This document shows positions 2-61,399 of a DNA stretch of 64,000 nucleotides, piece after piece. The translations under genes and the position numbers were made by a program. The DNA is taken from positions 16,305 through 80,304 of the IMG/VR virus record IMGVR_UViG_3300049491_000716. One strand, written 5' to 3'. The number at the start of each line of letters is the position of its first letter. The stretch's first letter is position 1. Source of the DNA: a virus. Under the pieces are notes generated by a model, which worked only from the letters and a program-made list of their open reading frames with translations, was not told where the DNA came from and did no database searches.

Positions 2-2227
2 AAAGCGCTGGCGCAGATTGCGACGGGCTTTGATCCGCAACGACTCGGCCCCCACCTGTTCGATTTCCAGGCGGCCATCGTCGAGTGGGCTTGCAAGCGA
101 GGCCGCGCTGCGATCTTCGCTGACACCGGCCTGGGCAAGACGGCGATGCAAGCCGAATGGGCCAGACAAGTAGCGGCCCATACTGGTGGCCGCGTGCTGA
201 TCCTGGCCCCTTTGTGCGTGGCACAGCAGACTGTCGAAGAAGAGGCGCGATTCGGCACTGCGATCAAGTATTGCCGCAAAGAGGCACAGACAGAAGGCGA
301 GATCATCATCACGAATTACGAGATGGCGGACCACTTTGACGTAGCCGACTATGCCGGCGTGGTGCTGGATGAGTCTTCGATCCTGAAGAGCCACGACAGC
401 AAGACGCGGGCGCGCATCATAAGCATGTTCGACAAGACGCCGTACCGGTTGAGTTGCACCGCGACCCCAAGCCCGAACGATCACATGGAGCTTGGCAACC
501 AGGCCGAGTTCCTGGGCGTGATGACGGCCGTTGAAACGCTGGCGATGTTCTTTGTTCACGACGGCGGAGACACCGCAAGCTGGCGCCTGAAAGGCCACGG
601 CAAGCAGCGCTTTTGGGAGTGGATGAGGACATGGGCTGTGTGCGTGCGCAACCCGTCGGACCTTGGCTTTGATGGATCGCGCTACATCCTGCCGGGCCTG
701 CAAATGCACGAGCACACAATCGATGTGCAAGAGCCGCTGCCGGGGCAGTTGTTTGCTGGCATTGCGCAGACGCTGACCGAGCGCCGCGACGCAAAGCGGC
801 AGTCGTTGGGCGAACGTGTTTGCATTGCCGCCGATCTGGTCAACAGCCACACGCGGCCAGCCATTGTGTGGTGCCACCTGAACGACGAAAGCAAGGCGTT
901 GGCGCAGGCCATCCCCGATGCCATCGAAGTCACCGGTTCCATGACGGCCGACGAGAAAGAGGCCGCAATCATGGCCTTCACGCATGGCGAGAAGCGAGTG
1001 ATCGTCACAAAGCCAAGTATCGCTGGATTCGGCATGAATTGGCAGCACTGCGCCGATATGGTTTTTGCTGGTCTTGATGACTCGTTCGAGAGCTTTTACC
1101 AGGCGGTGCGGCGCTGCTATCGCTTCGGCCAGAAAGACGTGGTGAACGTGCATCTGGTGTCGTCAAGTGCCGAGGGCGCAGTGAAGGAAAACCTGCAGCG
1201 CAAGCAAGCCCAGGCTACTGACATGGCCGAGAGCATGGTGGCGTACATGCGAGAACTCACGAAACAAACGATCAAGGGTGCGACGATGGAAAAGAGCGAC
1301 TACGTGCGAGAAGTAGCCGAGGGCAAGGGCTGGACGATTCACCTTGGCGATTGCGTCGAAGTGGCAAGCGAACTGCCTGACAACAGCATCGACTTCTCAG
1401 TGTTCAGCCCGCCGTTTGCCAGCCTATACACCTACAGCAACAGCGATCGCGACATGGGTAACTGCAAGAGCTACAGCGAGTTTTACGATCACTTCCGGTT
1501 CCTCGTTGCGCAACTGTACCGCGTCACCAAGCCTGGCCGGCTGCTGAGCTTCCATTGCATGAATCTGCAAACCAGCAAGTTCCGCGACGGCGTGATCGGC
1601 CTGCACGACTTCCGTGGCGAACTCACGCGCATGTTTGTCGCGGCCGGCTGGGTCTTCCATTCCGAGGTTTGCATCTGGAAAGACCCCGTGACCGCGATGC
1701 AGCGCACCAAGGCCCTGGGCCTACTGCACAAGACCATCCGCAAGGATTCGAGCATGAGCCGGCAGGGCATCCCTGATTATCTGGTGACGATGCGCAAGCC
1801 TGGCGAGAATGCCGAGCGCATCAGCCACACTCACGAGAATTTCCCTGTCGAAAAGTGGCAGCGTTACGCCAGCCCGGTCTGGATGGACGTGAACCCGACT
1901 CGCACGCTTCAATTTCGCAACGCCCGCGAGACTGACGATGAGCGCCACATCTGCCCGCTCCAGCTTGACGTGATCGAGCGAGCTATGGAGTTGTGGAGCA
2001 ACCCGGGCGACTTGGTTTTTAGCCCGTTTACGGGCATCGGCAGCGAGGGCTATGTGAGCATCGAAATGGGCCGGCGCTTTGTTGGCGCGGAACTCAAGCG
2101 GAGCTACTTCGACTTGGCAAAACGCAATCTGACTGATGCCCGCAAGACTCAGGTCGAAGGGCTGTTCGCTGACGATTACGAGGATGCATTTGCAGAAGAT
2201 GGCGAGCCACAGGCGGCGGAACTGTGA
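2..2227 (+). CDS. Helicase-DNA methyltransferase fusion (5' partial)
   Basis: The reading frame is open from base 2, so the gene begins before the window; the first internal ATG at 146 lies after the Walker A motif and cannot be the start. The N-terminal half is an SF2/SNF2-type helicase: TGLGKT at 125-142, a DEAD-box variant VLDESS near 360-380, and a C-terminal helicase domain ending in RRCYRFGQK near 1110. From about 1300 a second domain is a DNA methyltransferase, with SPPF near 1405-1420 and the SAM-binding FTGIGSEG near 2028-2050. The order of the motifs and the SPPF signature resemble beta-class N4-cytosine or N6-adenine enzymes. Helicase-methylase fusions are known in phages; likely roles are genome modification against host restriction or replication. 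Target base and site are not known. Confidence 0.9.
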   Translation, partial: KALAQIATGFDPQRLGPHLFDFQAAIVEWACKRGRAAIFADTGLGKTAMQAEWARQVAAHTGGRVLILAPLCVAQQTVEEEARFGTAIKYCRKEAQTEGEIIITNYEMADHFDVADYAGVVLDESSILKSHDSKTRARIISMFDKTPYRLSCTATPSPNDHMELGNQAEFLGVMTAVETLAMFFVHDGGDTASWRLKGHGKQRFWEWMRTWAVCVRNPSDLGFDGSRYILPGLQMHEHTIDVQEPLPGQLFAGIAQTLTERRDAKRQSLGERVCIAADLVNSHTRPAIVWCHLNDESKALAQAIPDAIEVTGSMTADEKEAAIMAFTHGEKRVIVTKPSIAGFGMNWQHCADMVFAGLDDSFESFYQAVRRCYRFGQKDVVNVHLVSSSAEGAVKENLQRKQAQATDMAESMVAYMRELTKQTIKGATMEKSDYVREVAEGKGWTIHLGDCVEVASELPDNSIDFSVFSPPFASLYTYSNSDRDMGNCKSYSEFYDHFRFLVAQLYRVTKPGRLLSFHCMNLQTSKFRDGVIGLHDFRGELTRMFVAAGWVFHSEVCIWKDPVTAMQRTKALGLLHKTIRKDSSMSRQGIPDYLVTMRKPGENAERISHTHENFPVEKWQRYASPVWMDVNPTRTLQFRNARETDDERHICPLQLDVIERAMELWSNPGDLVFSPFTGIGSEGYVSIEMGRRFVGAELKRSYFDLAKRNLTDARKTQVEGLFADDYEDAFAEDGEPQAAEL

Positions 2228-2316
2228 TGCACAACGTTTGAATTCACCTGCCGCCGGAGGCGGTCAGGTGGAATGAAGGGTTATGCGTCTGATTCAACAA
2301 CGAAGGAATTTGAAGC

Positions 2317-57652: not shown

Positions 57653-57992
57653 CTATTCGTCTGGGCTTGCGGCTTTTCGTTTGTACGGGCCGCGCTTGAC
57701 GCCAAGTTGTGCAGCGATTTGATTCGCGCGATGTTCTGCGCTCGCTTTTCGACCCCGAAGTGACTCAGCGATCTTTCGGCGGTGGTCTTGCGACTTTGGA
57801 CGCTTGACCCCAATGTTCCTGGCCAAGTTGGCGGCCTTCCATTCTTCAGTGTGCTGTGATCCAGCCGCGTGCTTGTTGCCGAAAAGATGAGCGACTTGTT
57901 CCGGCGACCTTTTTATGCCTCGAATCTTCTCGGCGCGCTTCTCTACGACTTCTGGCGAATACTTGCGCCCGATAGCCTTCTGGGAGATCTTT
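57653..57992 (-). pseudogene. C-terminal NUMOD3 half of a split GIY-YIG homing endonuclease
   Basis: Encodes NUMOD3-type units such as GRKYSPEVVEKRAEKIRG and RRKIAESLRGRK, with no nuclease domain. The frame continues to 58018 with only a GTG start inside the mobile element, so it is a fragment. At position 57985-57992 it meets the IS1595-family element; the missing N-terminal half lies at 60961-61305. Joining the two across one copy of AGATCTTT reads KSKISQKAIGRKY in frame. No product of its own is expected. Confidence 0.8.
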
Positions 57993-58017
57993 CGGAAGTA
58001 TGTAGTTGACAACCGCA
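57985..58017. repeat. Left target duplication and inverted repeat of the IS1595-family element
   Basis: AGATCTTT (57985-57992) is the left target duplication. The inverted repeat runs 57993-58017, beginning CGGAAGTATGTAGTTGA. It matches the reverse complement of 60936-60960 at 21 of 25 positions (mismatches at positions 8, 14, 18 and 21). Confidence 0.9.
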
Positions 58018-58057
58018 CTTCTGGGGCGGAAAATTGCTCTATCGAAGGGGCAATTCA

Positions 58058-58333
58058 ATGAAACAAAAGCCAGTTCAACGCCCGATGATTTGGGAAAAGA
58101 CGGACATCAACGTTGTTGAGTTGAACTTTGGCGGCGGTCCGCATCGTTCGCTTGAGGTGCGACTCCAGATTGCAGAAATTCACTCCACGCCTGGGCATAG
58201 GCGGCCGAACGTGGTGACTCAAACGCCTTGGTACGTCCTACCACTCGACGCAGCAGAGAGCCTTGCTCAACAGCTAGCCGAAGTTGTTCGGCAAGCGAAG
58301 GCAATGCAGGCCTCGGCCGGTCCTCAACAATAG
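58058..58333 (+). CDS. Passenger gene 1, hypothetical protein, 91 aa
   Basis: Starts MKQKPVQRPMIWEKTDINVV with GAAGGGG upstream. Beta-rich first half and a helical end (PLDAAESLAQQLAEVVRQA). The gene near the other end of the element (60424-60825) has a similar overall shape. Proteins of this kind are not characterised. It is the first gene inside the left inverted repeat. Confidence 0.6.
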   Translation: MKQKPVQRPMIWEKTDINVVELNFGGGPHRSLEVRLQIAEIHSTPGHRRPNVVTQTPWYVLPLDAAESLAQQLAEVVRQAKAMQASAGPQQ

Positions 58334-58374
58334 ACGTATCTGGACTTGGCTGGTAGCTCATTCGGAATCCAATC

Positions 58375-59292
58375 ATGTCAACAGCAACTCACACAGAACC
58401 TCAATTCAACGATGACGACGCGGCACGCGAGCACCTGGAAGCCATCCGCTGGCCCAATGGACCCGTCTGCCCGCATTGCGGTGGCACAGAGCGCAATAGT
58501 CGCCTGAATGGCGCCTCGCATCGCCCCGGCCTGCTGTTCTGTGGCGACTGCCGCGAACAGTTCACCGTGACTGTCGGCGCTGTGTTTGAGCGCTCGAAGG
58601 TGCCGCTTCACAAGTGGGTCTATGCGTCGCACCTGATGGCCGCCAGCAAGAAAGGCGTCAGTTCCAAGCAATTGGAGCGTGTGCTCGGCGTGACCTACAA
58701 AACAGCTTGGTTCATGTCGCACCGTCTGCGCGAAGCCATGAACATCGAACCCAGCGGCATGCTGGGCGGTGGCGGCGGCCCCGTGGAGGTCGATGAAACC
58801 TTCTGGGGCAACAAGGGCAAGCAGAAGCCCGGCGCGCGTTCCTACCACCACACCATGAAAGTTGTGTCGCTGGTCGAACGCGGCGGTGAGAAGCGTTCGT
58901 TCCATGTTCCGAACGTGAGCCCGACTACCTTGCGCCCGATCCTCAATGCGCAGATCGCCAAGAAGGCGCGCCTGATGACGGACGAGGCCGGTGTCTACAC
59001 CAAGATCGGCCGTGACTTCGACTCGCACGAAGTCGTGAACCACAGCGCGAAGGAATACTCGCGCGGCGACGTGACCACGAATAGCGCCGAATCCAGCTTC
59101 GCGCTTCTCAAGCGTGGCCTTGTCGGCACCTTCCACAGCGTGAGCGAGCAGCACTTGCAGCGCTACGCCACTGAGTTTGATTTCCGCTGGAATACCCGCC
59201 AGTCGCTCGGCTTCAACGACGCCGACCGTGCCGCGCTGGTGCTCAAGAACATCGGCGGCAAGCGCTTGACCTATCGGCGGATTGACGCATAG
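58375..59292 (+). CDS. IS1595-family (ISXO2-like) transposase
   Basis: A 305-residue DDE-type transposase. N-terminal zinc ribbon: VCPHCGGTER and CGDCREQF. Catalytic domain: EVDETFWGNK (first Asp), LMTDEAGVY (second Asp) and SAESSFALLKRG (Asn/Glu site), followed by YATEFDFRWNTR, all ISXO2-like. Length is normal for the family and the frame is intact, so the element may still move. It catalyses cut-and-paste or copy-paste movement with 8-bp target duplication. Confidence 0.95.
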   Translation: MSTATHTEPQFNDDDAAREHLEAIRWPNGPVCPHCGGTERNSRLNGASHRPGLLFCGDCREQFTVTVGAVFERSKVPLHKWVYASHLMAASKKGVSSKQLERVLGVTYKTAWFMSHRLREAMNIEPSGMLGGGGGPVEVDETFWGNKGKQKPGARSYHHTMKVVSLVERGGEKRSFHVPNVSPTTLRPILNAQIAKKARLMTDEAGVYTKIGRDFDSHEVVNHSAKEYSRGDVTTNSAESSFALLKRGLVGTFHSVSEQHLQRYATEFDFRWNTRQSLGFNDADRAALVLKNIGGKRLTYRRIDA

Positions 59293-59353
59293 GGCGTCTT
59301 CCAACAATCACACCGCCACGCCGCGAACCACGAAGCTAAAGAAGGTAGCGGCG

Positions 59354-59533
59354 ATGCGAGCCAAGACAACGAAGCAGGCGGCGACGTATTCACCAGTGGT
59401 CGGCGCTGAGCACTGTCCTGTGTGCTGGGTTCAGCACGATTTCATGAACCGACTCAGAACCGAGAAACATGCAAATGGCGATGCTGTCGCAGTCGTCGTC
59501 TGCGATGTGTGCGGACTGTATCTGCCACTTTGA
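59354..59533 (+). CDS. Passenger gene 2, small zinc-ribbon protein, 59 aa
   Basis: Starts MRAKTTKQAATYSPVVG with GAAGGT upstream. HCPVCWV and CDVCGLYLPL provide four cysteines of a zinc ribbon. Follows the transposase by 61 bases. Could bind DNA or RNA; no specific role known. Confidence 0.6.
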   Translation: MRAKTTKQAATYSPVVGAEHCPVCWVQHDFMNRLRTEKHANGDAVAVVVCDVCGLYLPL

Positions 59534-59540
59534 CCAAGCC

Positions 59541-60212
59541 ATGACCAAACAATCACGGGATGAGGTATTCAAGGCCGTTCAGACTGAACATGAAAATTTC
59601 AAGCTGGCGCTCGGAAACTTGATGCTGTCATGGGCTGATGCCGAATCAGCCCTCTACTGCGTACTCCGTCACTATGCTGGCGTCTCCGATGACGTCGCTC
59701 GCGCAGTCTTCTCTGGTACTCGCGCGAAGGGCATGATCGAGTTCATCAACAACATCGGCCACAACACCAACATGGATTCGGCGAGACGAAATGACCTAGC
59801 GATCGTCTTTTCTCATATGAGCGCGATCAACACGATGCGGGATCGCCTTGTTCACAACTCAAGCGCAGGTGAGATTCGGTTTGAAATGGACGATCCGGGG
59901 TCGCGGTAGTTGACCAACGAAGGCCGCGTAAGTCGTCGAGGAAACGCGTTCAGGTATTCGATAGGTTCCTCGCTCATTAACGACATGAGCACTGACCTCC
60001 TATCTATTTGCTGGCACCTTCTTGCCCACCGTGACAGTGTTCCATTTCAGCCGTGGGCTGGTGTGTCTGGTCGAGAGCGGCCATACGCATGGCTTTATAG
60101 ACCTCCACAACCAGCAAGTGCTTCGGGTAGGTCTGATAAAGCGCCTCGTAAACTGAAAGGCCAGCCTCTTCCATCTCGGAAGAAACCTGCGCGCGACAAG
60201 GATCAGACATGA
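59541..60212 (+). pseudogene. Passenger gene 3, HEPN-like protein with in-frame amber stop
   Basis: The frame from ATG 59541 runs to TAG at 59907 (122 residues) and continues open without frame change to 60212, with clearly protein-like sequence (NAFRYSIGSSLINDMSTDLLSICWHLLAH). So one gene of 223 codons plus the stop appears broken by a nonsense codon. Residues near 105 read MRDRLVHN, an R-x4-H motif with an acidic residue after Arg, the signature of HEPN RNase domains; the surrounding helices also fit. Coupled (ATGA) to passenger gene 4. Confidence 0.6.
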
Positions 60213-60355
60213 AGACACCTCAACAAAATGAGCCTTCCCCACTCACTGGGGACGAAATCCTTCGGCGCATGCTCAATACGCCGCCTAAGCCGCACGAACC
60301 GAAGTCAGCGGCTACTCCGGCGCCAGCAAGAAAGCGAGCTAAGAAGCCGACCTGA
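60209..60355 (+). CDS. Passenger gene 4, small protein coupled to the HEPN-like gene
   Basis: A 48-residue protein, MKTPQQNEPSPLTGDEILRR opening then MLNTPPKPH and a Lys/Arg-rich tail. Its ATG overlaps the end of the HEPN-like frame by four bases. Such gene pairs suggest toxin-antitoxin partners, but no antitoxin family is recognised. Alternatively it is part of a conserved pair of unknown function. Confidence 0.6.
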   Translation: MKTPQQNEPSPLTGDEILRRMLNTPPKPHEPKSAATPAPARKRAKKPT

Positions 60356-60423
60356 AATGGCGGGCGCCCGCTCCCGTGGTGCAATTGGCTTCTCACAAGC
60401 AATCACCCACGAAAGGGGCTCCC

Positions 60424-60825
60424 ATGAAATCGTTCTTCGTAAAAGGGATCACAAGTCAGGGGCTCGACGAGGACGGCGCTACTGGCTACGTGACGCTGGA
60501 CATTGAGGGCGACGAGCCATTCGAGTTGCGCATTCCGATGGGCGCGCCTGTGGCGCAACTCATTGAGGTTCTGCTTGACCAATCGAACGCCGCCGGCCCC
60601 AAGCAACGCGCGCACCAAGGCGCATCAACGCTCCACCAAGCCATACCCGTGCCGATGCGACCCTCAGATATAGGAGTCGCGGCAGCCGGGAATGAGGTTG
60701 CGCTCTCGTTTCACTTTGGATCGTTGCGTCTTCTGCTTCCAGTTCCCAGCGCGCAAGTTCGATCCATTGCCGAGAGTCTGGTGACGGCAGCGGGATTGAA
60801 ATCCGGCCCTGGATCAGTTCACTAG
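60424..60825 (+). CDS. Passenger gene 5, hypothetical protein, 133 aa
   Basis: Starts MKSFFVKGITSQGLDEDG, with GAAAGGGG upstream. Beta-rich with a helical end (SAQVRSIAESLVTAAG). No family recognised. It is the last passenger; a hairpin terminator follows at 60869-60891 before the right inverted repeat. Confidence 0.6.
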   Translation: MKSFFVKGITSQGLDEDGATGYVTLDIEGDEPFELRIPMGAPVAQLIEVLLDQSNAAGPKQRAHQGASTLHQAIPVPMRPSDIGVAAAGNEVALSFHFGSLRLLLPVPSAQVRSIAESLVTAAGLKSGPGSVH

Positions 60826-60868
60826 CGCTGCGCCCCGCATCAAAGTCGTTCATGGAAGCCCCAATGAA

Positions 60869-60891
60869 AAGGCCCGCTCAGCGCGAGCCTT
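60869..60891. terminator. Bidirectional hairpin at the right end of the element
   Basis: AAGGCCCGC (60869-60877) and GCGAGCCTT (60883-60891) form a 9-bp stem (one wobble) with a 5-base loop. On the minus strand it is followed by TTC, with AAAA in front on the plus strand. It could end the passenger transcript and block late transcription entering the element. Confidence 0.6.
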
Positions 60892-60935
60892 GACACGAAT
60901 TCTGGCCTGTCATCCATATTGGACCTCTCCCGGCT

Positions 60936-60968
60936 TGCGTTTCTCACCTACACACTTCCGAGATCTTT
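60936..60968. repeat. Right inverted repeat and target duplication of the IS1595-family element
   Basis: The inverted repeat occupies 60936-60960 and ends ...CACACTTCCG on the plus strand. AGATCTTT (60961-60968) repeats the left flank 57985-57992 exactly. Confidence 0.9.
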
Positions 60969-61305
60969 GACTTTGTTTCTCGTGTCGCTTTCCGACCCAG
61001 CGAGTTTCCCGCGACCTTCAGCACGTTGTACTCAGGAGACAGCGCGTCAAGCGCGATCTGCTCGTACAGCAACAGGCTGGGCTTGTCGCACAGGATCAAG
61101 ACTTGAAACTGGAAGGCACCCTGTCCGTACTTGTTCCAAGCGGGCTGAAGGTGCCGGCTGTGTGGCTCCCGGCACGCAAACCTGCGCGATGACAGTTCCA
61201 TCGCTTCGTAAATGACAGCGCGCTTCCGACGTATCTGGCGCCGTTGACCGTATTAACGATCTCATAGATGCCCGTGTTGTGCGGGCGTACACTCTTCTCA
61301 GCCAT
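60944..61305 (-). pseudogene. N-terminal GIY-YIG half of the split homing endonuclease, frameshifted
   Basis: Starts at 61305 with HNTGIYEIVNTVNGARYVGSA, the GIY-YIG motif, then RWNCHRAGLRAGSH. There the frame is lost. The overlapping frame continues SRHLQPAWNKYGQGAFQF and EQIALDALSPEYNVLKVAGN, the expected next parts of the domain. The switch lies at a CACACA tract (61159-61164); removing one CA restores it. After ETKSKIS the sequence runs into the transposon inverted repeat and stops at 60944. So the gene carries two defects: insertion and slippage. Confidence 0.8.
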
Positions 61306-61333
61306 CGCTGATACCCTAGATCAGTGGTGGTCA

Positions 61334-61367
61334 GAAGCCCGCTGATGTTTCCGCACCTTCGGGCTTC
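61334..61367. terminator. Hairpin between large terminase and homing-gene remnant
   Basis: GAAGCCCG (61334-61341) and CGGGCTTC (61360-61367) form an 8-bp perfect stem with an 18-base loop. It lies 33 bases after the large terminase stop on the minus strand. There is no T-run, so termination is uncertain. Confidence 0.4.
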
Positions 61368-61399
61368 GCTATTTCATGCGCCTATTCTCGCCTTTTCCA

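Follow-up and report, generated by a model that had tools for sequence, protein, structure and literature searches.

Transporter insertion sequences (tIS) of the IS1595 family, an idea that a passage in PMC3129680 credits to Siguier, Gagnevin and Chandler (2009), are among the closest described systems to the element analysed here, with which they share an IS1595 transposase, inverted ends, 8-bp target duplications and passenger genes downstream of the transposase. Tn3-family transposons offer a second parallel, as they carry toxin-antitoxin passengers in which RNase toxins (PIN, HEPN) are recurrent, repeatedly acquired and held at a fixed site (PMC7157771), a pattern that the predicted RNases described below resemble. 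The Tn3-family toxins sit with recognised antitoxins, HEPN being paired with MNT in one case, TnSod9 (PMC7157771), whereas the present HEPN gene stands without a recognised antitoxin in an IS1595-type transposon, where a constant small gene adjoins the cargo. A HEPN RNase (here predicted) with a small neighbour likewise recalls the HEPN/MNT type II toxin-antitoxin systems; however, the small neighbour is unrelated to MNT and is not HEPN-specific, and a search for MNT among the ORFs of the window's element returned no match. At the level of the protein, the RiboL-PSP HEPN family (PF18735) has the same R-N/D-x3-H motif at the end of helix 3, an upstream E in register with the conserved one here and a 94-column profile match to the present family, which nevertheless falls below every curated cut-off, is free-standing and transposon-borne, and differs from RiboL-PSP HEPN in a short beta insert after the motif, where a beta-hairpin has been reported for Csx1 (PMC3710099).

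IS1595-family transporter ISs and RNase toxins as transposon passengers are accordingly known kinds of system. The dominant HEPN cargo, the small protein (termed here the RML-TPP protein) and the head-to-head CATG start of the two genes were not found described in the open literature searched, outside the scope of which the 2009 tIS paper falls. The window, meaning the whole 64,000-nucleotide stretch analysed, covers positions 16305-80304 of a virus record that is an 80,304-bp contig. The reading preferred here, at a probability of roughly 0.6, is that its gene at 59541-60212 is interchangeable cargo of a transporter IS, a predicted and presumably toxic RNase that has been inactivated in this copy by a nonsense codon.

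The transposon and its insertion site

The gene lies inside a complete IS1595-family element whose limits are set by inverted ends and an exact target duplication. The principal features, in window coordinates, are as follows.

57653..57992, - strand: interrupted GIY-YIG endonuclease gene, 3' part, in a continuous frame across the empty site
57985..57992, no strand: target-site duplication, left copy (AGATCTTT), one of the exact 8-bp repeats flanking both ends
57993-60960: complete IS1595-family element, 2,968 bp, with inverted ends and exact 8-bp target duplication
57993..58017, + strand: left terminal inverted repeat CGGAAGTATGTAGTTGACAACCGCA, matching the right end at 20/24 positions
58058..58333, + strand: 91-aa passenger ORF between the left end and the transposase, weak DUF6907 match
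58375..59292, + strand: IS1595-family transposase, 305 aa, with Pfam and NCBIfam matches
59354..59533, + strand: 59-aa ORF with two CxxC motifs (zinc-ribbon-like), directly upstream of the HEPN gene
59541..60212, + strand: cargo gene assigned to the HEPN family by homology, alignment, model and profile match, 223 codons, TAG-interrupted
60209..60355, + strand: 48-aa conserved transposon accessory gene (RML-TPP protein), its core present in 57/93 complete elements
60424..60825, + strand: 133-aa ORF between the 48-aa gene and the right end
60936..60960, - strand: right terminal inverted repeat, pairing with the left end
60961..60968, no strand: target-site duplication, right copy (AGATCTTT), exact 8-bp repeat
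60961..61305, - strand: interrupted GIY-YIG endonuclease gene, 5' part, containing a frame change

All of the hallmarks of an IS1595-family transporter IS (transposase domain, inverted ends, 8-bp target duplication and internal passengers) are present. The transposase matches Pfam DDE_Tnp_IS1595 (6e-35), Zn_ribbon_IS1595 (1e-13) and NCBIfam NF033547 (195 bits), the left-end type is shared with about 93 relatives (consensus ..ATTATATACTTGACAAA..), and both transposase and ends look intact. The element has a GC content of 57.5% against 61.3% for the whole record. As to the lesser passengers, the stretch that holds the 91-aa ORF is absent from the closest relative, L002, the transposase of which starts about 65 bp from the end; the 59-aa ORF has homologues in L011 (46%) and L016 (38%), both of them elements with HEPN cargo; and the 133-aa ORF showed neither a family match nor a homologue in related elements. 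It was also observed that the ends of most relatives carry an inward TTGACA (..TATATACTTGACAAA..), so that each end has a sequence similar to a -35 promoter box.

The surrounding genes are those of a tailed phage and include a terminase, an HK97-type protease-capsid fusion, a portal and a tape measure. When the flanks are rejoined with one copy of the target duplication, a single frame runs across a GIY-YIG gene, the N-terminal part of which (61099-61305) matches Pfam GIY-YIG at 1.3e-6, and it is this gene that the element is inserted in. The GIY-YIG gene (61305-60961 and 57992-57653, - strand) is in fact broken twice, by the transposon and by the frame change, which separates the N-terminal from the central part. 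Just outside the element, at about 61300-61370 (+ strand), a match to the SymR antitoxin RNA scores 33.4 bits against a gathering threshold of 61 and is probably due to chance.

The probable HEPN-family gene and its stop codon

A preliminary description of this DNA had proposed a HEPN-like passenger gene, a 223-codon frame with a lone TAG at 59907, an RDRLVH motif and a 48-aa gene coupled by ATGA; the sequence agrees on every one of these elements of structure, and the gene has turned out to be the cargo of an IS1595-family transposon. The frame runs from an ATG at 59541 to a TGA at 60210-60212, has a GC content of 53% and contains two features on which the argument turns.

59838..59855, + strand: R-x4-H motif RDRLVH, codons 100-105, with R and H invariant in 57 homologues, at the end of predicted helix 80-105
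59907..59909, + strand: in-frame TAG, codon 123, the sole interruption of the frame, falling in the beta insert that joins R-x4-H to the last helix (143-164)

A direct search of plasmids, phages, genome contigs and viral contigs for close relatives of the window protein returned none, and its homologues were reached only via the transposase. Relatives collected by transposase search comprised 80 genome loci and 74 viral loci (154 in all), of which 99 had recognisable ends with 8-bp duplications; six poor calls were discarded by hand, leaving 93 elements, the window's included. An iterative HMM search, started from the window protein together with four cargo proteins linked by blastp, settled at 62 entries, which stand for about 60 distinct loci among the 154. 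High-scoring HEPN matches found independently in alphaproteobacterial genomes sit in such elements as well, while weaker ones mostly do not.

Mean column identity across 57 aligned homologues is only 12%, and R100 and H105 are the sole invariant columns, so the R-x4-H motif is not a chance occurrence. The HEPN superfamily is characterised by Rx4-6H, usually with a polar residue (N, D, H) after the R, and by a motif that closes helix 3 of an all-helical bundle, ahead of the loop leading to helix 4 (PMC3710099). The present family agrees on both counts, the residue after the motif R being D or N in most members and the motif falling at the end of helix 3 of a helical bundle in two AlphaFold2 models, one for the window protein and one for L050, each of which is predicted to consist of a long helix, a short helix, a helix, a motif-ending helix, the beta insert and a last helix (in the window protein, helix 80-105 ends at H105). 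Comparison by hhalign with the RiboL-PSP HEPN profile placed the motifs in register at P = 1.6e-4, the corresponding values being 0.84 with the sequences reversed and 0.18 with Hpt as a four-helix control; Swt1 HEPN (0.004) and DUF4145 (0.03) matched over the motif only, and the AbiU2 HEPN profile gave no match. Residue E35 is invariant in alignment A2, at least 90% conserved in A4 and in register with the RiboL-PSP E, although its position is in the first long helix, not in helix 2, and it is without a clear Ex3[KR].

Database comparisons were less telling. No member reaches the cut-off of a curated HEPN family in Pfam, PADLOC, NCBIfam or PHROGs, where sub-threshold matches are scattered over one or two members each, and a search of PDB sequences with the family profile returned nothing. 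Foldseek comparison of the models of the window protein and L050 with the PDB retrieved no HEPN and no significant match, in a setting where helical bundles score poorly and which ran without a positive control; the structural comparison yielded one match to a viral model (E 3e-3). A match of the window protein to Arabinose_bd (E 1.6e-4, below the cut-off) occurs in 1/57 members and was set aside as chance. Taken with the invariant R-N/D-x3-H, the predicted topology and the in-register RiboL-PSP match, HEPN is very probably the right assignment, as had been proposed from motif and helix pattern. The fold prediction suggested as a check came out half in its favour, as AlphaFold places R-x4-H at the end of helix 3 of a helical bundle and the PDB comparison with Foldseek yielded no HEPN structure. 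On present comparisons and models, the cargo is a probable new, previously undescribed and hypervariable HEPN family.

That the frame stays open beyond the TAG is in itself weak evidence, since at least 100 open codons follow 9% of all stop codons in the virus record; it acquires meaning because homologues extend beyond this position. Six relatives in A2 run through and past it, and most of them share the later segments 'DL..I' and 'Y.PPQP', so the TAG appears as a lesion in a longer ancestral gene and a natural protein end at this point was ruled out. The comparison with homologues that had been suggested thus yielded none ending at the TAG, and the alignment identifies the window copy as a truncated form of a longer ancestral protein.

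The product of this copy is most likely inactive, because a protein ended by the TAG lacks the final helix as well as the closing part of the beta insert. It is improbable, to a marked degree, that the HEPN cargo is still made, either with the TAG read through or as a 122-residue protein that functions: the frame is open to its natural end with family features kept after the TAG, and R-x4-H precedes the stop, but the truncated protein would be without the last helix of the bundle. A further consideration is a tRNA gene with anticodon UUA encoded by the same record at 2154-2239 (- strand, L266; Rfam 52.1 bits), outside the window, which is of ochre-suppressor type, has a long variable arm like that of leucine tRNAs and could read UAG by wobble. 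Against this, TAA or TAG ends 24 of the record's 93 ORFs (the HEPN frame counted among the 24), no excess of long extensions follows these stops, and the transposase itself ends in TAG; since TAA and TAG serve as ordinary stops, an alternative code was ruled out and general recoding does not apply, and limited read-through by the phage-encoded tRNA is possible. An error of sequencing or assembly in a naturally intact gene is very unlikely. The record is of metagenome type and a frame change is seen in the GIY-YIG gene close by as well, but a single-base substitution to TAG is not a typical assembly artefact and the element's remaining genes keep their frames.

Cargo exchange and the RML-TPP gene

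HEPN is present in 42/93 complete elements and, judged by profile search, no other recognisable gene type occupies the interchangeable cargo slot of these transposons as often as HEPN. On the transposase tree its presence requires 24 changes, at least 18 of which are forced by supported branches. The sister element L002, with a transposase 81% identical to that of the window, carries unrelated cargo, itself related to a pair in L015 that includes a PIN protein. Other elements with the small gene hold SocA/Panacea (L025), HTH_66-DUF433 (L026) or DUF1828 (L021), and methyltransferases occur in L085 (alongside HEPN) and L063. A second cargo family (IGDAIHNLR.ALD ... L.N.DKH), possibly HEPN-like, was observed opposite the small gene at CATG in L014, L042, L046 and L067.

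The 48-aa ORF begins with an ATG that overlaps the TGA of the HEPN frame as ATGA, and encodes a conserved core.

60248..60295, + strand: conserved core GDEILRRMLNTPPKPH (LRRMLxTPPxPH), from comparison of 28 diverse members

Residues L18, M21, L22, P25 and P26 are invariant in these 28 members, and the core [LVI]-[RK]-R-M-L-x-T-P-P-x-P-H/K recurs on either strand in the 57 complete elements that have it. No Pfam or NCBIfam family matched the small protein. Variation in the gene is concentrated at wobble positions, so it encodes a protein, and a role as a DNA signal was ruled out. Searches with the small protein alone were positive in 4/300 and 17/385 genomes, where most matches adjoin the same transposase or its remnant and a minority have none on the stretch read. 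Four loci (L181, L182, L183 and L184) hold the small gene, with or without HEPN, and no transposase on the stretch read, being degenerate or non-autonomous copies, and in L023 (2573-3145) the core and an additional domain of about 80 residues form one in-frame fusion.

The starts of the two genes are closely entwined. In the divergent layout, the ATG of the small gene and that of the HEPN gene overlap as CATG in 26/30 loci (two copies of one element are among the 26, and starts were assigned by position and open frame), compared with 3/170 other divergent ORF pairs with an in-frame CATG in the same loci. CATG also occurs in several elements with other cargo (the four with the second cargo family) and at 10/25 small-gene loci from the genome search, a few of the 25 repeating the first set and none of the ten being among the 26. 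Shine-Dalgarno-like sequences precede 14/30 cargo starts and 10/30 small-gene starts, relative to 12% at random positions, and owing to the overlap the ribosome-binding region of each gene lies within the other. The window represents the co-directional layout with its ATGA link; in five other co-directional elements the gaps are 38-108 nt.

Such coupling invites the view that HEPN and the 48-aa protein form a dedicated toxin-antitoxin pair, in which a knock-out of the toxin by TAG is tolerated since the antitoxin remains; the preliminary description had suggested a possible toxin or defence pair. Linkage is tight in both layouts, small basic proteins are common as antitoxins and CATG would permit mutual antisense control. 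Nevertheless, the two genes occur independently: the small gene is found in 27/42 HEPN-positive and 30/51 HEPN-negative complete elements (15 with HEPN only, 21 with neither as detected here; Fisher p = 0.67). The small protein is also found beside PIN, Panacea and DUF433-type cargo, and conservation is much higher in its core than in HEPN, contrary to what a co-evolving pair would show. A dedicated pair is therefore unlikely and the suggested partnership did not hold up; its independence of HEPN makes the small gene a transposon component, and by its distribution the RML-TPP protein is a conserved, undescribed part of the transposon backbone and no antitoxin specific to HEPN.

Proposed function and significance

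A toxin would normally need an antitoxin partner, and none was identified for HEPN. This, together with the stable residence of the gene in the interval that separates the transposase from the right end of many elements, could be taken to mean that HEPN is neither toxin nor defence factor but a regulator in the service of the element, which binds or cuts RNA and so limits how much transposase is expressed. However, 49/91 elements of the transposase tree have no detectable HEPN and yet look complete, and hypervariable sequence and replacement by toxin-antitoxin- or defence-type genes fit conflict cargo better, which makes a regulator quite improbable.

Interchangeable RNase cargo remains the preferred explanation. 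The sequences show a complete transporter IS of the IS1595 family, with a cargo slot whose content is exchanged between elements and to which a constant micro-gene is attached. Intact HEPN members would most likely be metal-independent RNases of toxin or abortive-infection type and, by analogy with described systems (PMC3710099; PMC7157771), may act as conditional RNases that stabilise the element or protect the host or host replicon. In the window copy, the TAG would have killed the cargo and left transposase and ends intact-looking. A more tentative proposal, doubtful at present, is that of plug-in cargo transposons, wherein the first codons of RML-TPP form, on the other strand, the start region of whichever conflict gene is docked at CATG, and the RML-TPP protein or the overlapping transcript serves as a general brake, restraining RNase or toxin cargo of diverse kinds.

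These results connect a single transposon group, widespread in Proteobacteria and their phages, with a large number of probable RNases that evolve fast and have gone unannotated. They also reveal a conserved micro-protein family without annotation, and show that the coupled small gene, for all its look of an antitoxin, belongs to the transposon and not to HEPN. The overlapping CATG starts offer a concrete arrangement through which dangerous cargo might be both expressed and replaced and, if it exists, a general brake would allow repeated cargo swaps without killing the host.
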